Assembly: GCA_028715625.1 (NCBI GenBank)
Contig: JAQURL010000017.1
Location: 1 to 41,723 of the forward strand
Reading direction: 5' to 3'
From: Candidatus Margulisiibacteriota bacterium
Lineage (GTDB): Bacteria > Margulisbacteria > Riflemargulisbacteria > GWF2-35-9
Length of the DNA stretch: 41,723 nt
The notes below the pieces were generated by a model that was not told the origin of the DNA, did no database searches, and saw only the letters and a program-made list of their open reading frames with translations. The position numbers were made by a program, and so were the translations under genes. This document shows positions 17,661-40,165 of this stretch, piece after piece (positions within the stretch are counted from its first letter, which is position 1; the number at the start of each line of letters is the position of its first letter).

Positions 17661-18650
17661 ATGCTTCATAAAATTATTGCTGTCACTATAGAGGACTGCT
17701 TGAATATATTATTGCCAAAATGGCTCAAGGCTATGAAGGAAGCCAGTATTATTGCCGGGGACCTTGTTCTGGAGAAATACTATGGCACCATCAAGCCCCT
17801 ACAGGACAAGGATTATTCCGAGTCTGTGGATGAGCTTAAGAACGCTTTGAAGAGCGCGGTTACAGAAGCTGATTATGAAGTGCAAAAAGTGCTCCTTATC
17901 CGCTTTATTGAACTGGGATTACATGAACTGATGGGCGTGCTTTCCGAGGAGGATAACGAGCAGATCGCCGCTCTGGAAAAAAAGTTTCTACATCGGGGCG
18001 AGCTTCCGGCCAAAAGGTTAACGCTGGTCATCGATTCGATTGACGGTACGGGCTGTCTGATAAACACCAATTCCGAGAACCATGTTTTAAAGAGAGGTAA
18101 TCCTGCAAACAAAGATAATTTCGGCATAAGCATCGGTCTGGCATATGGCAAAAAGATCATTGCCGGAGTAGTGTATATGCCAGCCAGGGATATCCTTATG
18201 TCCACTTCTATTCTCGGCGAAACCAGAATAAATAATAAAATTGTCAGGATAGATAAAAATCAGCGGTTTTCAACTTCTGACCCGGTTAAGCTTAGTTCTA
18301 CACTTAAGAAGTCTCAACTAATTCCCGACTTTAAAGCTCTTGATAAACTTTTGTCGAATACCAAAAATACTGATTCTACCGTGGCCAATATGCTGGCTTT
18401 TTTGAAAGGTGAAATGAAGATATATATTTCCGAAGGTATAGATTTTACTGACTTTAATATGTGGGGGTTGATGCTGCGTAATGCCGGTGGTTTTATGGGC
18501 AATCTGGAGGGCAACCCCATAACCGAAGAAGACCTGCTGTTAAAAACGGATAAAGGCTGGTTTCTGAAAGGGTTTTTTATGCTGTCACCATCACGGGAGT
18601 ATCAGCAGAAATTAATAAAAGTTCTTTTAGAAAATAATTTACTAAAATAA
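17661..18650 (+). CDS. Inositol-monophosphatase-superfamily phosphatase
   Basis: A 329-residue Mg/Li-type phosphatase. Motifs in order are TEADYEVQKVLL (Asp71), LSEED (Glu96-Glu97), VIDSIDGTG (Asp125, Asp128, Thr130), the core FGISIGLAYGKKIIAGVVYMP, and near the end DFTDFNMWGLMLRNAGGFMGNLEGNP with Asp264 in place of the usual WDxAAG aspartate. The superfamily includes inositol monophosphatase, FBPase/IMPase, CysQ-type nucleotidases and others, so the substrate is open. The extended N-terminus (about 45 residues) is longer than in simple SuhB. GGAGAG six bases upstream supports the ATG. It leads a three-gene unit: the FBPase-like gene starts three bases after its stop. Confidence 0.85.
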   Translation: MLHKIIAVTIEDCLNILLPKWLKAMKEASIIAGDLVLEKYYGTIKPLQDKDYSESVDELKNALKSAVTEADYEVQKVLLIRFIELGLHELMGVLSEEDNEQIAALEKKFLHRGELPAKRLTLVIDSIDGTGCLINTNSENHVLKRGNPANKDNFGISIGLAYGKKIIAGVVYMPARDILMSTSILGETRINNKIVRIDKNQRFSTSDPVKLSSTLKKSQLIPDFKALDKLLSNTKNTDSTVANMLAFLKGEMKIYISEGIDFTDFNMWGLMLRNAGGFMGNLEGNPITEEDLLLKTDKGWFLKGFFMLSPSREYQQKLIKVLLENNLLK

Positions 18651-18653
18651 CCT

Positions 18654-20786
18654 ATGATGAAAAACAAAATTATCAGTACTTTTATCCATACGGATAAACC
18701 GGTTTTGTTTTACAGGGAAGACAGACAACAATCTTTAATACCTTACAAATTTAATAGCGGCTCACATATTGTAATTGAATTAGCTGAAACGAAGAATGAA
18801 CAGGACTTTTCTAATGCCACAGCAAATATTTATGGAAATTCTTTTTCAAAATTAAATTACTCAAGTGTTCTTCAACTGGATTCTATGGTTGTGGTTTTAA
18901 AAAAAGAGGGTGTTTTGAGCCCTGCTACTTTAAAGGATTTATTAAAAGCAGTAAAAGATGGCAGAAAAACGATTTCCCTGGATCTGGTTTCTCCGGAATA
19001 TATACAATTTCTCCATAAGTTTGATTCTTCAATAAGCATTGTTTGTATCTCCGACCCGCATGGCACACCGGACAAAATGATGGAGGGCATGAGACTTTTT
19101 CCGGCGGCCAGATTTTTATTAAATGGTGATTTTGTAGATCGAGGCGAGCCCGGTGGCCAGTTCACAACCAATATGCTTTTGACCTCTATTTTTTTGGATA
19201 AAACAGGAAAAGCAACAAACACGCAGGATGCGCTGGCCGTGATGGGCAATCATGATGCCATGCTTTTCGGGGCAGCCATTGGAGAGAAAGCAGCGATCTG
19301 CGATTTATTACGTCTGGCTTTTCGTTTTAACGAACATGAATATTTGGCCGATAAAATGGGTCTGAATTTTAGCAGCCTGATAGCTCTGGCTAAGAAACAG
19401 TACCATGAACAGGGCTTTCAGGGGATTTATACTTCTCGTGGTAATAATATTAAAATAAAAGGCGAATTTGTTTCCCAGAATCGTCTACTGGAAGTTCTTA
19501 CCACAGAAATGCTGCTTAAACTTGTTTTCAGTGATATAGATATAAAGTTGACCGAGGACGAAATGAATTTTTTACACAACATAAAATATTCCAGAAAACA
19601 CAAACCTTTAATTGATAAAAATCTGCGACTCTTGGAAAAGAAGCTAACGATCTTAAATCGTCTGGAGAAACTTGAGCGTGCTATAGTTGCGGCTATTACT
19701 GTAACAGACACAAGGACCCAAACTTATATTGCAGGTGTTGAGTTATATAAGGAAGAGATAACTTTTCTTAATGATTTTCTGCACCTGGATCAGACACAAT
19801 ACATAGTGAACACACTATTAAAAATACCTACAAATAAAAGCCAGCGGGAAAAAGAGAAAAAAGAAAGGGTCAAAATATTTACACGGATAATTACTGATTC
19901 GGAACGAACGAAGCTGGCGCGGATAATCAGGGGAGACCATAATAGCGGACAGCTTCTTTCTCTAGAAGAAGAGCAGGTTATACTTGACCTGCAGCTTCAG
20001 ATAATTTCCAATAAAAGATTTCAGGAGTTAGCTGAAATGGGATTTTCCAGTTTTAAACTTTATCAAAAACAAAAAATTGGGGAAAAAACGTTCCTTTTTA
20101 TGCATAGCAATATTCCGGTTGACGATCACGGCAATCTACGCCCGGTTGAAATTGACGGTGTTCAATATTCAGGGATTAATTACCTTACTAAATGTCAGGA
20201 AAAAGTAGATGAAATCGGTAAACGGTATCGGGATTTTATTCAAAATTCTCGGAACGCAAAGCCGGTTGAAAAAAGAAGGCTTATCAAAGCATTCTTAAAT
20301 GAAATTAATGAAACAAGGGGATTTTTATACAAACTGGCCTGGGACTATGAAAGCCCATTATTCGGCAGAAACATAACGACATTGGAACAAACCAGAACAT
20401 CTAAGTATACAGGATTATGGGCTGAGCCTGAAGATCCCTGGTTTTCGGTTATACAGTCTGAAAAAGGAACCAGAGAAGCTGCTGACAGATTTTTTGAACA
20501 AATAGCGCTACAATTAGAAGTTGAAAAAGACAATATACAGATTATTACTGGGCATAAACCATCTAAAGACGGTCTTCCCAAAGTTTATGCAGATGGAAGG
20601 ATAGTTTGTATTGATGCCGGGGCTTCCGGAGTTTATGGAAACATGGGCGCCTATTTATTGTTATCCGGGAAGGGCACTATTTATGCCATGTCTTTAGCTA
20701 ACGAAAACAGCAATTCCCCCGTCTTAAAAAAATATGACATTTTCCAGCTAAATACTCAAACTAAAAAATTTGAGATCATCAAGTAA
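18654..20786 (+). CDS. Class III fructose-1,6-bisphosphatase-like metallophosphoesterase
   Basis: A 710-residue calcineurin-type phosphoesterase. Metal ligands are in SDPHG (Asp134, His136), GDFVDRG (158-164), GNHDA (198-202), MHSNIP and GHKP. Beyond these it resembles the Firmicute class III FBPase: after GNHD, LLRLAFRFNEHEYLADKMGL and IALAKKQYHEQGF; then IPVDDHGNLRPVEIDGVQYSG, SPLFGRNITTLEQT and IDAGASGVYGNMGAYLLL. It differs in having about 130 extra N-terminal residues, and only about 20 residues between DxH and GDxxDR instead of about 100. Sugar-bisphosphate hydrolysis is inferred. It is cotranscribed with the IMPase-family gene upstream (3-bp gap) and probably with the MutS-like gene 42 bp downstream. 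Confidence 0.8.
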   Translation: MMKNKIISTFIHTDKPVLFYREDRQQSLIPYKFNSGSHIVIELAETKNEQDFSNATANIYGNSFSKLNYSSVLQLDSMVVVLKKEGVLSPATLKDLLKAVKDGRKTISLDLVSPEYIQFLHKFDSSISIVCISDPHGTPDKMMEGMRLFPAARFLLNGDFVDRGEPGGQFTTNMLLTSIFLDKTGKATNTQDALAVMGNHDAMLFGAAIGEKAAICDLLRLAFRFNEHEYLADKMGLNFSSLIALAKKQYHEQGFQGIYTSRGNNIKIKGEFVSQNRLLEVLTTEMLLKLVFSDIDIKLTEDEMNFLHNIKYSRKHKPLIDKNLRLLEKKLTILNRLEKLERAIVAAITVTDTRTQTYIAGVELYKEEITFLNDFLHLDQTQYIVNTLLKIPTNKSQREKEKKERVKIFTRIITDSERTKLARIIRGDHNSGQLLSLEEEQVILDLQLQIISNKRFQELAEMGFSSFKLYQKQKIGEKTFLFMHSNIPVDDHGNLRPVEIDGVQYSGINYLTKCQEKVDEIGKRYRDFIQNSRNAKPVEKRRLIKAFLNEINETRGFLYKLAWDYESPLFGRNITTLEQTRTSKYTGLWAEPEDPWFSVIQSEKGTREAADRFFEQIALQLEVEKDNIQIITGHKPSKDGLPKVYADGRIVCIDAGASGVYGNMGAYLLLSGKGTIYAMSLANENSNSPVLKKYDIFQLNTQTKKFEIIK

Positions 20787-20828: not shown

Positions 20829-23800
20829 ATGGTTTATAAAATTATTTCTCTAACGGGCCAGATGGCTGTAGAAACCAACAAAATCCTCGCAAGAGGATTA
20901 AAGCTGTTTGCTCCTCAACGAAATGGAATCGACACCAGACTGCTAACGGATAATCCTGGCGAACTGGTCAGGATCAGGACAGACGTGCTGGTTATAGATG
21001 GCCGTACTAATATTTGGGAAATGCTGAAAAGTCCTGTTGTGAATGCAGATATCCTGAATTCCAGGGTACAGGCATTACGAACTATAAATAGTCTAAAAGA
21101 CGGACTTTACGAAAAACTTTATGCAACCAAAGCTACAGCCATGCGGTTGTTCAGTTTTGAAGAGGCTTATGAGAACTGGGATGACCTGAGAAATGCAATA
21201 AAAGACCTGGAAGCAGATAAATACAGGGGAAAGGATGACGCTTATTCCCAGATTTTTTTAATGCCTGCTACTTCTCTGGATGACGCCAGGCTGGATATAC
21301 ATAAACACATCATGCTCATCAGGCAGATGCCCGGAGAGTTTTTTAAGTTTGTCGCGGATGACTTATATGAAGCGTTTGAGAAAGCCAGAAAGTTTTCACT
21401 GCAAGACTTAAAAAAAATTTACGAGACCAAAGACCGGAAAGCTTTCTCTGAATTAAAAAGGAATATAGAAAATTTCTGTGGGGTTTTTTCCAGATGGGAC
21501 AGCGTACTTATTCTGGCGGAATGGATAAAAAGCGGTTATTTAAAGCCTTCTGAAAATACAAATGGCAGTACTCCGGAACAGGCTTTTAATGTTTTTGATT
21601 TCAGGCCGCTTCTTTATGGAGATTACCGTAGATATTACGAAAATGTGCCTAATGATATTAACCCTGGCAAAACTCTGGAAGTGTTTTGCGGAGGGAACGG
21701 TTCGGGCAAAAGCACCTGGCTTAAGACCAGGCTGGGAGCGCAATTGCTGCATCAGAACTTTTTACATGTCAACGCTGATTCGGCCAGAATGCGTCAACAC
21801 CGACAGATAATTTACATTAACCGGGGAGGCAGCGGATATGGGGAAGACCTGAGTGCTTTCGGCAATGACATACAAAATAAGCTTTTGTCATTTTTGCCGG
21901 ATTTACAAAATGATGCCATGATTTTTCTCGATGAATTCGGTTCTACCATACCGGAGCAGGAGGCTTATTTTCTGAAAAGAGCTCTGATGGATTATTTGCT
22001 GGTAAGGAACGCGAAGATATTTTCTGCCACTCACAATGAGCTTTATATCAAATGGTTAAACAGACATAACAGAACTGATTTCGGTCTGTACCATCCTCTT
22101 TGCGCACATAATAACGGTGGAGACATTGTGTATACCTATAAACTTAAAGAAGGAGCTGACTCCGCGCATACTTTTAACGTTTTCAGGATGGTTGGAATGC
22201 CTGATGAAATAATAAACAGGGCCGTTAATTATTCCTTAAGGAACCAGTCGCCATTAGCAAAGATGGTTATTTTATCTCAACCGATAGAAGCATACACATC
22301 GTCGGAAAGAGAACAAAAAAAACAAGAAATAGCCGGATTTATGGGACTTTCCAGGCTAAATGAAATGGTGCGCAACGAACAAGGCTGGATTCTGAGGCTG
22401 TATCAACCGTTAGATTACAAAGAAAAACCCGCCAGATGGTTCCCGGACCAGGATATATTCCATCAGGCAAGCCACCCGCCACATCTCAGCAAGCTTAGGC
22501 CCAAATTACAATTCGATTTTTTTTCTTATTCCGGTGATGAAAAAATAATGTTTCCTTCTCAATTGTTTGGAAAATACAGCCACTTAAATGTTTGGGACTC
22601 GACCTTATGCGGGCTTACCAGCTGGGGGCTAACCAACAACACAGCCGAGCTTCTGGAAAAGCAGAAGTTTTTTGACGAACTCACAAAAATTCCCTTTGAG
22701 GAAGCTGATAAAATTTACAATGAGGCCAATATGTTCAGATGGGTTGTAAATTTGTATTTTGATCGGAGGTACAAAAAAGAGTTTGATTTTGATTTAAAGG
22801 ATATGTATAGATTTAATCATGTCTGCTGGGATGAATTTATAGCAAATCTGACAAGAAACTCCCAATGGTATGGCCCCGGAAGGCTTATTGACTGGTTTAT
22901 GGGTTTGATGGAAATAGAAAAAGCATTAGGCGTGTTACCGCCAGACTTCGAGTTGAAACATCAGAAAAAACTGGAAAAGATACACAAGACTGCCGATTTG
23001 ATCAGTCGCATAGAACTTGCGCAAATTAGAAGCAGCCAGACCTGGAATGAAAAATATCAGAGAAGCGCGAAAACAGCTAAAAAAATAGAAGAAAAGTTAA
23101 TGGAAGAGCTGCAAACACTGTGGCCTAAAAATTTAAACACCCTGTTAGAACAGATCAAGGCTATGGCAAAAACAATTCGTTCCCAAAGTGTGCCGATAGA
23201 CGTATTGGCACTTGATACTCAAAAAAGAAGAGAAGTTACAGGACTGATAGAAAAATACAGAATATTCAGGGAAAAATTAAGAAGACATGAGTCTGATTCC
23301 GAATATCCTGAAAAAGGCGCGCATGCGATGTTGCAGATTATCAGGGCTATAAAGGGTGAAGGAAACTTGCTGAAGCCGCTGATAAAAAGACTAAAGGAAC
23401 TGGATTCTGTTCATGCTCAGCGGCTGGCTAATTATCTTGATGAAAACTTTCATTGCTCTGACGTTGAAGAATTTATTAAAGTTTTGAATATCAACAGAGA
23501 TATAGGCGAAGGAGAGAAAGAATACCTTGGAGAATTATATTCCGGAGATGATAAATTATTATCTCCTGTTTTTGAATTTCTCGGTATTCTGCATATAGCG
23601 CATCAGATAAGGAAACAGGGCTGGGCCAAGGTAAAATTTAATAATACAGGCGAAATAGACATAAAAGGCATGTATCATCCGGCTGTTGAAAAATCGGGAA
23701 ATGAACAGGTAAAAACCGATTTTCAGATGAGCCCAACAACAGCTTTTGATATTCTGGAAGGAGCGACAATGGGTGGCAAGACTTTTCAGATACAGGAAGT

Positions 23801-24425
23801 TTACTGGGCTTTTCGTCTGGCGCATAGCCTGGGATATGTTCCTGCGGATTATGCCGATATTCCGGCCATCGACGGTATAGTTTATATTGACCGTATTCTG
23901 GAAGATGAGAAAAACAGATTAAGTGCCGGACAGAATGACGCGGCTACCTGGACAAAGATTATAAATAATGTTCGGGGGAAAATTAGAGATATGTCCGCGA
24001 GGAAACACTACTGGTTTGCCATAGATGAAATGCTTTCCAGCGTACCCAGACGTTATCAGCAGGGACTGGTTATTTCTATCCTGGAAGAGCTGAAAGCACT
24101 TGGCCAGAGAGGACAAATATCCATGCATAATCCGGAGCTGGTTTCACTTTTACTGGAGCTGGACCCGGAAGCTTATACTGTGCATCATCCGCAAATTGAA
24201 TTAAATGCTGATGGCGGAATTGAAAAATACACTTATCGGATTGTGCCCGGCAGAAGCCTGGACCGGGAAGGAAATCACAGCGCTTTTTCCCTGGAAACAG
24301 CAGAAAAAATGGGCCTTCCAGCCGAAATCATTGAAAGCGCCAGAAACTACCGAAAAAGTCATTTTCAGGAAGAGAGTGGTAATGTGATAAAAATTTCCGC
24401 GTGGCAAAAAGCCAGGGAAAAATAA
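20829..24425 (+). CDS. Tandem (two-unit) MutS-family ATPase protein
   Basis: A 1198-residue protein with two MutS-type units. Unit 1: core/lever region at about 40-250, then VPNDI before Walker A GGNGSGKST (288-296), Walker B MIFLDEF (364-370), switch histidine SATHNE (399-404) and the tail YTYKLKEGADSAHTF...GMPDEIINRA. Unit 2: core/lever at about 585-900, MYHPAVE (948-953), Walker A-like GATMGGKT (978-985), GYVPADYADI, Walker B FAIDE (1063-1067), ISMHNPEL (1097-1104) and GLPAEIIESAR. MutS proteins work as ATPase dimers with composite sites, so one chain could be a built-in dimer. There is no N-terminal mismatch-recognition domain with a Phe-x-Glu motif and no Smr domain, so it is neither canonical MutS nor MutS2. 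No ribosome binding site is evident. The stop is one base from that of the convergent gene. Confidence 0.82.
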   Translation: MVYKIISLTGQMAVETNKILARGLKLFAPQRNGIDTRLLTDNPGELVRIRTDVLVIDGRTNIWEMLKSPVVNADILNSRVQALRTINSLKDGLYEKLYATKATAMRLFSFEEAYENWDDLRNAIKDLEADKYRGKDDAYSQIFLMPATSLDDARLDIHKHIMLIRQMPGEFFKFVADDLYEAFEKARKFSLQDLKKIYETKDRKAFSELKRNIENFCGVFSRWDSVLILAEWIKSGYLKPSENTNGSTPEQAFNVFDFRPLLYGDYRRYYENVPNDINPGKTLEVFCGGNGSGKSTWLKTRLGAQLLHQNFLHVNADSARMRQHRQIIYINRGGSGYGEDLSAFGNDIQNKLLSFLPDLQNDAMIFLDEFGSTIPEQEAYFLKRALMDYLLVRNAKIFSATHNELYIKWLNRHNRTDFGLYHPLCAHNNGGDIVYTYKLKEGADSAHTFNVFRMVGMPDEIINRAVNYSLRNQSPLAKMVILSQPIEAYTSSEREQKKQEIAGFMGLSRLNEMVRNEQGWILRLYQPLDYKEKPARWFPDQDIFHQASHPPHLSKLRPKLQFDFFSYSGDEKIMFPSQLFGKYSHLNVWDSTLCGLTSWGLTNNTAELLEKQKFFDELTKIPFEEADKIYNEANMFRWVVNLYFDRRYKKEFDFDLKDMYRFNHVCWDEFIANLTRNSQWYGPGRLIDWFMGLMEIEKALGVLPPDFELKHQKKLEKIHKTADLISRIELAQIRSSQTWNEKYQRSAKTAKKIEEKLMEELQTLWPKNLNTLLEQIKAMAKTIRSQSVPIDVLALDTQKRREVTGLIEKYRIFREKLRRHESDSEYPEKGAHAMLQIIRAIKGEGNLLKPLIKRLKELDSVHAQRLANYLDENFHCSDVEEFIKVLNINRDIGEGEKEYLGELYSGDDKLLSPVFEFLGILHIAHQIRKQGWAKVKFNNTGEIDIKGMYHPAVEKSGNEQVKTDFQMSPTTAFDILEGATMGGKTFQIQEVYWAFRLAHSLGYVPADYADIPAIDGIVYIDRILEDEKNRLSAGQNDAATWTKIINNVRGKIRDMSARKHYWFAIDEMLSSVPRRYQQGLVISILEELKALGQRGQISMHNPELVSLLLELDPEAYTVHHPQIELNADGGIEKYTYRIVPGRSLDREGNHSAFSLETAEKMGLPAEIIESARNYRKSHFQEESGNVIKISAWQKAREK

Positions 24426-36433: not shown

Positions 36434-39400
36434 TTAATAATCCTCATCTTTTAAAAAGGCTCTTTTTTGTTCATATATTATTCTTTGCTGCCAATCCTGA
36501 ATTTTTTCTGATACATACTGACTATGATTAATCCATTTAACGTCATTTAAATGCATAAGTAACCCTTCCCAGAAAGATAAAACATCTTGATAAGAGGAAA
36601 TAAAATCACCACTTCCACTAAAAAGATGAGGTTCAAAATCAAGTTTCTTAAAATTATCGACCTTATTATTAACATTTAGGAATGTTTGGATAAACTCATA
36701 AATGTTTTGTTGAAAACATTTCTTCACTGGTATAAAAATTAAATTCAAGGCTTTTGTATTATCTGAGTTTTTGATTATGAACTGTTTAATAAATTCCATC
36801 TTTTTTTCGATGTATTCTTCATTAGGATGTTTTCCTAAAAAGAATACATTTATATAGTGGTTGTCTAAGTAGTATGATTTTTTTTGTAAGAAGAACTCTA
36901 TAATTTTATTTAAAATTTCTGACGAATTTGGAAGCCCCCAAATAAATGAGTATTCTCTTGAGTAAACTGAGTCAAAAAGGTATTCCTTTGTATCGGTTAA
37001 CACTTGAAGGTGTTTAATTATAAATTCACAATCTAATTCTATGAGTTTTTTAAGAAAAGTTCCGTCATAGTCAAAATTTAGATCTCTAATTGATTCAAAA
37101 AGCCATAATTCGTTTATTAAATTTTTATCTTTTATTACTTCGAACAATTGCTTGCCTATTTCACGGGTTGACACGAAAAGGTAGCAGAATGAACAGTTGT
37201 TTTCACTTCTTCTGTTATAAAGTGTTTGTAAGATTTTTTGAGCAATTCCGGTTTGAATATTGTCGTATTTGATTAAGAATTCATAATCAATAAATCCATA
37301 GTCAAAAACCACAGAATTAAAGTAGTCCAATAGTCGCTTAATATATTCATCGGTAATTGCTGCCTTTGGGAGACCAACCCAGAAGGCGAGCATCCAGTTT
37401 GATTTGATGTTGTAATTCTGTTTCGAAACTATCTCAAATAGACTCTTATGATCTTCAAGATGTGTATTGAGAAAATTTACTATCACAACATATAAATCGA
37501 CTTTTAATGAGTTGTTCATATCCACAATATAAGAAATAAAATTCAAGAATAAATTCTTATCTTTTATTAGGTCGTTTAAAATTATGAACATAAAATTACC
37601 CAAGATGTAATGATCTCGATCAGAATTAGACTTATAGATTTCAATTAATTGAGAATAAAGGCTTTTATAATCGGTCAGGGAAAAATTAGCCATATTATTT
37701 AGTATGTCTTCTTTGCGCTTTTTTTCTATTTCATTATAGGATAGCCCTTTTTTGAACAACACCCTTCTTTCGTATGCATCAAATGAAATTAATCGTGACA
37801 ACGCAAAAAGGTCTGTGTGGGAGCATTTTTCTATTTGTTGAAAATTGGCTATATCAACCTCAAATCTTTTCAATAATTCAATATATTCTTGTATTACCTG
37901 ACATGTTTCAAATGATGAAAAAATCGAGTGTTTTTCTATGAGTTTTTTAATATATTCTGAATCATAAAGTAAAGCTGCTTTGATTTCTTCAATTTTTCCG
38001 TGCATATTTGAAGACAGCTCTTTGATATAATCATTCAGAAAATCATTTAAACGCAGCGAATCGAGTCTAAGAACGAAGTCAAATATTATTTTATGGACTT
38101 CTTTAATCGGCTCTGTAAACGGAAGTCCCATTTGATTAAGATATATTTTATGTCCATCTGCTGTGGATGACATGTGTTCAAGTTTTAGGAAAAATGGGGC
38201 AACATGCAACAGTACAAGTCCAATTTCGTTATATATTTTTGCTTCCTCTATTAATGTTTCTAGTAATAGTTGTTGGCGAGGAGTTGCTAAATGTGCTAAT
38301 TTTTCGTACTCAAAACTGTATGTTATGTACTCTGAAAATTGAGGAGCTAAATCTTTTCTTTTGATAAAGTACCGACATGCCAACTGAATAGAAATTTTTA
38401 TTTTTGTCTTATCCAAGTAAGTAAATTTATTCAACAAATTATAAATTTTTTCATCAACACCTTTATGATTTGTTTCAAAGCAAATGTCTTGATCAACTAT
38501 AGACTCTATTTCAATCATTCGGGCTAAGAATGATAAAACTTTATCTGGGATTACAAAAAAGAAAACAGAAGAAACTAGAAACAAATCTGATATATCCTTA
38601 TTATCTAATATTTGTGAAAACAAATTCTTTACAGGTTGTGTACACTTTCTTTTTATCAATGCAATGTCAAAACTGTTAGCAATAGGAATCAAAACATCCT
38701 TCATCCTTTTTGAGTTGCTCAAAAAAAAATGATTTAAAAATACGTCAAATGAAACGGCTTCCTTAGTAAAAACTAATTCATAAAAAAAATATGTAGCTAA
38801 TAATTGATCTGAAATTTTACATATTTGCTTGTCGTATAGATTGACTATTTCAAGTGTATGTAAAAAATATACGCTATCCCAAAAATCTGCTTCACTGATA
38901 TTAAAAACCCTATATATTTCTTGAACAAAATCTTTTTCAGCATTGATAGCTCTAAAGAAGCAAATTATTGCAAGAGTTGTAAAACGGTTTTTGTTTTCAG
39001 AAATTCTGAGTTTTTCTTCCAGATTTGAAAATAGAATTTTTTGAAGGGAATAAATGTTAATTAAGGGCTCAAAGCTATTTTTTTCTTTCACGGCATTTGA
39101 GGCTAAAATTGCCAATCTTGGATTGCCATGGGAAAAATCGCAAATGCGGTCAACAAAAATATGGTTGTGAATATCAACTGTTTTAGAATTTAGAATAGCT
39201 TTGATCTCATTCCTTTCGAGTGAATTAATAGTAATTTCTTCCCATGAATACTCTTGTAAATGCCGAGAAACTTCATCGACTGCGTAGTCTCTCACTGTTA
39301 GGACTAATTTTAAGACATTAGAACCAGGGGTTCTTAAAACTTGGGACAAAATATGTGTAAGCTGACTAATCCTGTTGGCATCATCTACTAACAATATTAA

Positions 39401-40165
39401 TTTTGGATTTTGAGAGAGAACCCGCTTTAAGTCTTCAAATAGGGAAACCTCTTGATTATCTATGCAAAAAAATGAAAAGTCAGGATATTGACTCACAAAT
39501 TTATTTACAGCTTCTATTGCAATCCTACTTTTTCCTACTCCAGGCTTTCCCTTTATGACCAAAATATCCTTTAGAGATAAGGCATTTATAATATTTTTAA
39601 TTTCTGATTCCCGAAATAAAAACTCATTCTCAAAAGTTAGAATTTTTGATTGTATTTTTGAAAACTCGTTTGGTGTAAGAATCTGTCTTGTATCTACTGA
39701 AATGTCTAACAAATCTTTTGCAATAAGAGGATAGTCAAAAGCTAACTTAAAAGAAATACTTCCAGATGTTATCTGTTCAAAATCACAGGAATTGTCAGTA
39801 CATAAGTCAATAATTTCGGTTACCTCTTTTGGTTCTAACTTTGAATTGTGGCAATAGATAATTTTATTAATCTTTGTTATTTCGATTCCGGTTTTTTTCA
39901 CATCGAAACATTTTTTTATATCTTCTAATACTTTGCTTAACAAATTATCCTGTTGGGTTGTATGCTCTATGAAAATAAACTCATCGTTTTCTAATTGAAT
40001 ATATGAGTCAGGGGTTCCTTTTACTGTTTTATCCGAACCATCTTTAGAACCATTTGGAATTACATTACCTAATCCACGCTGGCTTATAACTGCATCACAG
40101 ACCTTTTGAAATAATCCACCTTCAACTTGACGTAATTTTTCTTGTATCTCATTTAGTTTTGACAT
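36434..40165 (-). CDS. Large P-loop (STAND/Avs-like) NTPase with nuclease-like N-terminus; candidate anti-phage protein
   Basis: A 1243-residue protein. At the N-terminus FQKVCDAVISQRG...GTPDSYIQLENDEFIFIEHTTQ (Pro52-Asp53, Glu67, Thr69) looks like a PD-(D/E)xK-type fold with an ExT variant. Residues about 175-480 form a P-loop NTPase: FRESEIKNI, Walker A GKPGVGKS (206-213), Walker B LILLVDD (256-262), LTVRDYA and FSHGNPRLA, in the style of STAND/AAA+ ATPases. The remaining 750 residues are predicted helical repeats without clear motifs. This effector-NTPase-sensor plan is that of Avs and related defence proteins. It is the only gene between the tRNA-Asn repeats and is AT-rich. TATAAT six bases before the ATG and no ribosome binding site suggest a leaderless mRNA. 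The defence role is inferred. Confidence 0.7.
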   Translation of the reverse strand: MSKLNEIQEKLRQVEGGLFQKVCDAVISQRGLGNVIPNGSKDGSDKTVKGTPDSYIQLENDEFIFIEHTTQQDNLLSKVLEDIKKCFDVKKTGIEITKINKIIYCHNSKLEPKEVTEIIDLCTDNSCDFEQITSGSISFKLAFDYPLIAKDLLDISVDTRQILTPNEFSKIQSKILTFENEFLFRESEIKNIINALSLKDILVIKGKPGVGKSRIAIEAVNKFVSQYPDFSFFCIDNQEVSLFEDLKRVLSQNPKLILLVDDANRISQLTHILSQVLRTPGSNVLKLVLTVRDYAVDEVSRHLQEYSWEEITINSLERNEIKAILNSKTVDIHNHIFVDRICDFSHGNPRLAILASNAVKEKNSFEPLINIYSLQKILFSNLEEKLRISENKNRFTTLAIICFFRAINAEKDFVQEIYRVFNISEADFWDSVYFLHTLEIVNLYDKQICKISDQLLATYFFYELVFTKEAVSFDVFLNHFFLSNSKRMKDVLIPIANSFDIALIKRKCTQPVKNLFSQILDNKDISDLFLVSSVFFFVIPDKVLSFLARMIEIESIVDQDICFETNHKGVDEKIYNLLNKFTYLDKTKIKISIQLACRYFIKRKDLAPQFSEYITYSFEYEKLAHLATPRQQLLLETLIEEAKIYNEIGLVLLHVAPFFLKLEHMSSTADGHKIYLNQMGLPFTEPIKEVHKIIFDFVLRLDSLRLNDFLNDYIKELSSNMHGKIEEIKAALLYDSEYIKKLIEKHSIFSSFETCQVIQEYIELLKRFEVDIANFQQIEKCSHTDLFALSRLISFDAYERRVLFKKGLSYNEIEKKRKEDILNNMANFSLTDYKSLYSQLIEIYKSNSDRDHYILGNFMFIILNDLIKDKNLFLNFISYIVDMNNSLKVDLYVVIVNFLNTHLEDHKSLFEIVSKQNYNIKSNWMLAFWVGLPKAAITDEYIKRLLDYFNSVVFDYGFIDYEFLIKYDNIQTGIAQKILQTLYNRRSENNCSFCYLFVSTREIGKQLFEVIKDKNLINELWLFESIRDLNFDYDGTFLKKLIELDCEFIIKHLQVLTDTKEYLFDSVYSREYSFIWGLPNSSEILNKIIEFFLQKKSYYLDNHYINVFFLGKHPNEEYIEKKMEFIKQFIIKNSDNTKALNLIFIPVKKCFQQNIYEFIQTFLNVNNKVDNFKKLDFEPHLFSGSGDFISSYQDVLSFWEGLLMHLNDVKWINHSQYVSEKIQDWQQRIIYEQKRAFLKDEDY

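Follow-up and report, generated by a model that had tools for sequence, protein, structure and literature searches.

A single-chain protein with two MutS-type ATPase units and no mismatch-binding domain in a Margulisiibacteriota genome

The stretch of DNA analysed here (the window; 41,723 nucleotides of a Candidatus Margulisiibacteriota bacterium) encodes a 1198-residue protein in which two homologous MutS ATPase units, long maintained, lie in one chain without mismatch reading. By its domain make-up this tandem MutS is a new variant of MutS. On balance, and with some reserve, we favour the view that it is a pre-formed single-chain MutS pseudodimer, detached from mismatch repair, that works with proteins carrying the same short N-terminal tag.

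Two MutS-type halves in one chain

The first-pass annotation had claimed a pair of MutS-type ATPase units within a single chain, and Pfam, hhalign, structure comparison and the finding of further tandems in three phylum-level groups all bear this out. The MutS domain V profile (PF00488, MutS_V) matched the protein in two stretches, scoring 65.1 bits over the whole chain, above the gathering cut-off of 30.2. Taken alone, the first 490 residues scored 45.7 bits (residues 286-467) and the last 708 residues 22.4 bits (E 1.4e-4), the latter under the cut-off. Since the C-half was weak by itself, we turned to hhalign and to structure models. The family alignments of the N-half and the C-half matched each other with 100% probability (E 2.1e-47), and against an alignment of four MutS1 proteins they gave 99.3% (E 1e-20) and 99.3% (E 1.3e-20), respectively; the weak MutS_V match of the C-half is, thus, not down to chance. 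The AlphaFold model of the full chain (mean pLDDT 61.9, pTM 0.55) found MutS first in the PDB, and also MutS-beta and MutS2, while the model of the C-half alone (mean pLDDT 61.3) found human MutSalpha and bacterial MutS first, with E about 1e-12. In both models, of mean pLDDT near 62, the ATPase units were among the best-scoring parts. A MutS_V match in one half only, or a second half belonging to another P-loop family, had been named beforehand as the outcomes that would speak against the claim; neither appeared.

The expectation that PF00488 and the domain III profile (PF05192, MutS_III; cut-off 34.1) would each match twice held for the former, with the second half by itself below cut-off, and failed for the latter, which was undetected in the window protein and reached 20.9 bits in one Omnitrophota relative. 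The window protein has a predicted all-helical region and Foldseek matches to MutS, and the helical region of each half is apparently domain III-like (Table 1). Each half opens with a signature resembling the MutS core, xPxxDxxxIxxRQ in the N-half, which is conserved in the family but weak in the window copy, and LE[KR]QKxFxEL in the C-half. The features by which we define the tandem family, a pair of domain V units together with the C-half motif LE[KR]Q[KR]xF in a single chain, are present in the window protein.

All the sequence motifs first quoted for the protein were found in it. The ATP-site residues are K294/S295, D368/E369 and H402 in the N-unit, and K984/T985, D1066/E1067 and H1100 in the C-unit; both sites therefore look competent, judging from sequence. 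Throughout the family, the K-[ST], D-E and H residues are retained in each of the two units; the single exception is a giant Omnitrophota ORF whose C-unit has lost Walker A and the histidine. The further claim that the Walker A motifs of the halves had diverged proved weak, because the catalytic landmarks are all kept at both sites: GATMGGKT fits GxxxxGK[ST], and its resemblance to the GPNM[AGS]GKS of MutS1 is no less close than that of unit 1. The mismatch-binding domain is absent, as originally stated, and the sole PF01624 (MutS_I) match of the genome lies in a separate, canonical MutS1 (836-aa frame on contig C26).

Table 1. Features of the tandem MutS gene, its neighbours and related loci (positions in the window unless a locus is named)
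Feature	Position	Strand	Basis or remark
Tandem MutS-type ATPase gene (1198 aa)	20829..24425	+	ATG start; ORF coordinates exact; Pfam
N-terminal tag MVYKIIS, common to unrelated proteins of the same genome	20829..20849	+	tag census
N-half helical region, apparently domain III-like (residues 57-270)	20997..21638	+	predicted model, family alignment
N-half MutS domain V ATPase, residues 271-475	21639..22253	+	Pfam, hhalign
Unit 1 Walker A GGNGSGKS, residues 288-295	21690..21713	+	family alignment
Unit 1 Walker B AMIFLDE, residues 363-369	21915..21935	+	family alignment
C-half helical region, residues 585-905, opening with the family motif LE[KR]QKxFxEL	22581..23543	+	model, alignment
C-half MutS domain V ATPase, residues 906-1176	23544..24356	+	Pfam, hhalign, model
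Unit 2 Walker A GATMGGKT, residues 978-985	23760..23783	+	family alignment
Unit 2 Walker B YWFAIDE, residues 1061-1067	24009..24029	+	family alignment
Tagged FBPase_2 (Firmicute-type fructose-1,6-bisphosphatase)	18654..20786	+	42 bp upstream of tandem MutS gene
Tagged inositol-monophosphatase-family protein (IMPase)	17661..18650	+	3 bp upstream of FBPase gene
Tag starts inside the window	3505, 5387(-), 17661, 18657, 20829		tag census
Tagged divergent PGK	L078:11044-12438
Tagged divergent TIM-aldolase fusion	L079:10881-13385
Tagged divergent PFK	L132:7865-9907
Tagged divergent PGM	L141:8745-10436
Tagged divergent FBPase (the FBPase_2 gene above)	18654-20786
Second tandem MutS family	L023:5193-8318	-
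Second tandem MutS family	L095:2-2863	+
ORFs ending GxxPVI[IM][DN]I, Omnitrophota	L117:2207-7153, L118:3578-11779, L118:11782-12459, L163:5911-6333, L171:10-2547

Distribution and phylogeny of the tandem family

A search for the same layout, proposed at the outset, showed that Saganbacteria, Patescibacteria and Omnitrophota also encode tandems of full length. The window's own genome encodes two further paralogues, of 1186 aa (contig C73) and 1263 aa (contig C72), and the identity of 22-33% among the three suggests diversified roles. Saganbacteria provided proteins of 1481 aa (JACRPM010000007.1) and of 1433 and 1450 aa (JABMQY010000064.1), Roizmanbacteria one of 1175 aa (LBPR01000015.1) in a genome without any other MutS_V, and Omnitrophota a fragment (JAHFHB010000303.1); the family also occurs in additional genomes. 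The genes for the 1433-aa and 1450-aa proteins lie near each other on one contig (L055:8172-17665, minus strand), forming a duplicated pseudodimer. The family is rare throughout: among 74 genomes of the window's phylum, 334 sampled from Omnitrophota and 380 sampled from the phylum of Roizmanbacteria (Patescibacteria), three each had it, and these include some of the genomes from which the search started.

In the phylogeny, one group unites six of the seven N-units (support 93/96), and the eight C-units all fall into a second (92/84); the N-unit of the window protein is a long branch that falls in neither with confidence. Tandem units are all separate from MutS1 (98/93), which lies on the opposite side together with some single-unit proteins. 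(In one of the single-unit proteins, L097, a GxxxxGKT-like match at residue 287 was put down to chance and left out of account for the tree.) The separate grouping of N-units and C-units across phyla indicates that the tandem is old and has been maintained. The same phylum holds a second tandem MutS type, in genomes G009 (1041 aa) and G032 (at least 953 aa), with both Walker A motifs intact. Its N- and C-units group with each other (99/98), pointing to what is probably a separate duplication. The tree favours a single old fusion, earlier than the dispersal of the family over several phyla, and probably a second one. A different arrangement was seen in Omnitrophota, where a giant ORF of 3336 aa, open at either end (G075; L114:2-10009, minus strand), combines two MutS_V units with a 3-dehydroquinate synthase.

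A shared N-terminal tag and tagged operons

All three tandem paralogues of this genome start with the seven residues M-x-x-K-I-I-[A/S], or close to it. The pattern M-x(1-3)-K-[ILV]-[ILV]-[AS] stands at a start of 82 of the 697 ORFs in the 867 kb sampled, where about 1.4 would be expected, and residue 4 is K in 59 of the 82. The tagged ORFs fall into 57 phmmer groups, the largest of which has 22 members, including ankyrin-repeat proteins; 12 tagged genes within 19 kb of contig C15 (L070:375-19476) are part of this 22-member family, some with ankyrin repeats. Common upstream DNA was ruled out as the origin of the tag, as 68 distinct 12-nt words encode the 82 tags and the upstream DNA has no evident similarity, so that the sharing is at the level of protein. 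A strict DNA pattern of the tag occurred 71 times in the genome and once for its reversed control. The enrichment was weaker in relatives, with 20 against 1 in G006 and 16 against 0 in G002, and the tag is also enriched, less strongly, in G004 and G005.

Among the tagged proteins are PGK, a TIM-aldolase fusion, PFK, PGM, FBPase, a glucanotransferase, NAD synthase, CoaE and NDK-Maf proteins. PGK is present in two copies, a canonical untagged one (513 bits) and a divergent tagged one (175 bits), as is TIM (343 and 97 bits, respectively). From a reading of its motifs, the tagged PGK appears to keep the motifs of its nucleotide site and to be altered in its substrate half. The tandems of Saganbacteria and Patescibacteria lack the tag, which is therefore dispensable for core function. 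In Omnitrophota, both tandem ORFs with known ends close with a C-terminal GxxPVI[IM][DN]I, a motif that, in a sample of about 207 ORFs, ends just three more, and that occurs at no C-terminus in the sampled stretches of the window's genome.

Tagged genes adjoin the tandem gene at all three loci of the window's genome, and carbohydrate enzymes do so at two of the three. In the window, IMPase, FBPase_2 and the tandem MutS make up an apparent operon with gaps of 3 and 42 bp; on contig C73 the apparent operon consists of a ROK kinase, a GH77 4-alpha-glucanotransferase (MalQ) and the tandem MutS, with tagged neighbours, and in that on contig C72 the tandem MutS lies between genes for tagged proteins of 201 and 329 aa. 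Elsewhere in the window there is an ORF of 1243 aa (36434-40165, minus strand). The placing of tandem copies in apparent operons with tagged genes, and their having the same tag, most likely reflect joint work with the tagged proteins. With about 12% of ORFs tagged, the tag on all three paralogues could be coincidence.

Known MutS-type systems and possible roles

The layout was described from the start as unlike any known MutS, and we agree: the protein is far under the cut-off of every NCBIfam equivalog, and neither a tandem MutS nor the N-terminal tag was reported in the open-access literature searched. MutS1 acts as a dimer with two ATP sites. The window protein resembles MutS1 and MSH proteins in its domain V ATPase, which includes Walker A, Walker B, the histidine and a helical tail, but has two such units per chain and no domain I, in a genome that has its own MutS1; it scores 59.3 bits against TIGR01070 (cut-off 641.7) and 73.3 bits against PRK05399 (cut-off 480). 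Like MutS2, which is the top sequence match among PDB structures (38.8 bits), it has domain V and an apparently core-like region without domain I. Chains of typical MutS2, however, hold a single unit and end in an Smr domain, whereas Pfam scans to E 1 for the whole protein and E 10 for the halves found no Smr, and the MutS2 equivalog TIGR01069 gave 86.1 bits against a cut-off of 400. KamC (NF052383; about 508 aa) has a MutS-type core and ATPase without domain I and acts outside mismatch repair, but is a single unit.

In the pseudodimer that we favour, the two domain V units would pack as in the MutS dimer and so make two composite ATP sites, an arrangement that we infer from MutS biochemistry (the full-chain model has pTM 0.55 and mean pLDDT about 62). 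The sites of MSH2 and MSH6 are non-equivalent, and since the N- and C-units are separate old lineages, the two ATP sites of the tandem could be fixed in a similarly non-equivalent state. Driven by the binding and turnover of ATP, the helical arms would then open and close round a target, probably something other than a mismatch. The context points to tagged proteins rather than DNA mismatches as the putative target, and the protein would be a structure-gripping or remodelling ATPase in the pathway or place marked by the tag.

A more specific form of this reading, overlapping with it, is that the tandem MutS uses ATP to reactivate or remodel enzymes or ribonucleoproteins, in this case the adjacent tagged enzymes. 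KamC is a reactivase of lysine 5,6-aminomutase, and MutS2 splits ribosomes. KamC is indeed the top NCBIfam match of the window protein, at 88.5 bits, and tagged enzymes neighbour the tandem gene in operons at two of the three loci. However, the KamC model prefers canonical MutS1, which it scores up to 219 bits, so that the match is unspecific and membership of KamC was rejected; no protein in 74 genomes passed the NF052383 cut-off of 300, and the Pfam-scanned neighbours of the tandem genes include no aminomutase. We regard this role as possible, with the odds against it.

MutS2 binds DNA without domain I, and the tandem MutS may therefore do so too. It could be a DNA clamp of the MutS2/MutS5 type that does not read mismatches and acts on branched DNA, in recombination or its suppression, the fusion doing no more than stabilize a dimer that would arise in any case. 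The MutS-like domain V and helical regions, the precedent of MutS2 and its place as top PDB sequence match would fit such a role, as would the lack of a MutS2-type protein among the MutS_V matches of this genome. Set against these are Pfam scans in which neither Smr nor another nuclease domain appeared, the low TIGR01069 score, paralogues so dissimilar as to suggest diversified roles, and neighbours that are carbohydrate enzymes and not repair genes, and we consider the clamp unlikely. That the gene is an accidental read-through fusion or an assembly artefact of adjacent mutS-like genes has a negligible chance of being true: the assembly is fragmented (127 contigs), but the conservation of the tandem refutes this, with two more full-length copies in the genome, others in independently assembled genomes of three phylum-level groups, no internal stops, and N- and C-units that are old separate groups.

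Other origins and functions were also rejected. A phage origin was discarded, as there were no viral contig matches and the phage and plasmid matches were partial, about 25-31% identical, with none covering 80% of the query; the same partial matches led us to discard a plasmid origin. Anti-phage defence was rejected because PADLOC gave no match for the three tandems of this genome; for G033 it gave weak P-loop matches only.

More speculatively, and we think rather improbably, the tandem MutS may be the motor of a separate tagged proteome, in which the N-terminal tag, and perhaps the Omnitrophota C-terminal tag GLxPVII[DN]I, direct MutS-type ATPases and divergent second copies of housekeeping enzymes (of glycolysis and of NAD and CoA synthesis) to a compartment or export route, a role similar to that of glycosome signals. 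If the tag does mark such a route, it would belong to a protein-sorting system absent from the literature found, and the tandem MutS would be one of its components. The tag system, with its putative function, may be a larger finding than the tandem MutS.

Asymmetric ATPase cycles are studied with MutS as a model, but in the homodimeric protein it is hard to mutate one site only. In a natural single-chain pseudodimer each ATP site could be broken separately, which would allow a direct test of this long-debated asymmetry. The family most likely shows that MutS clamps are employed outside mismatch repair.
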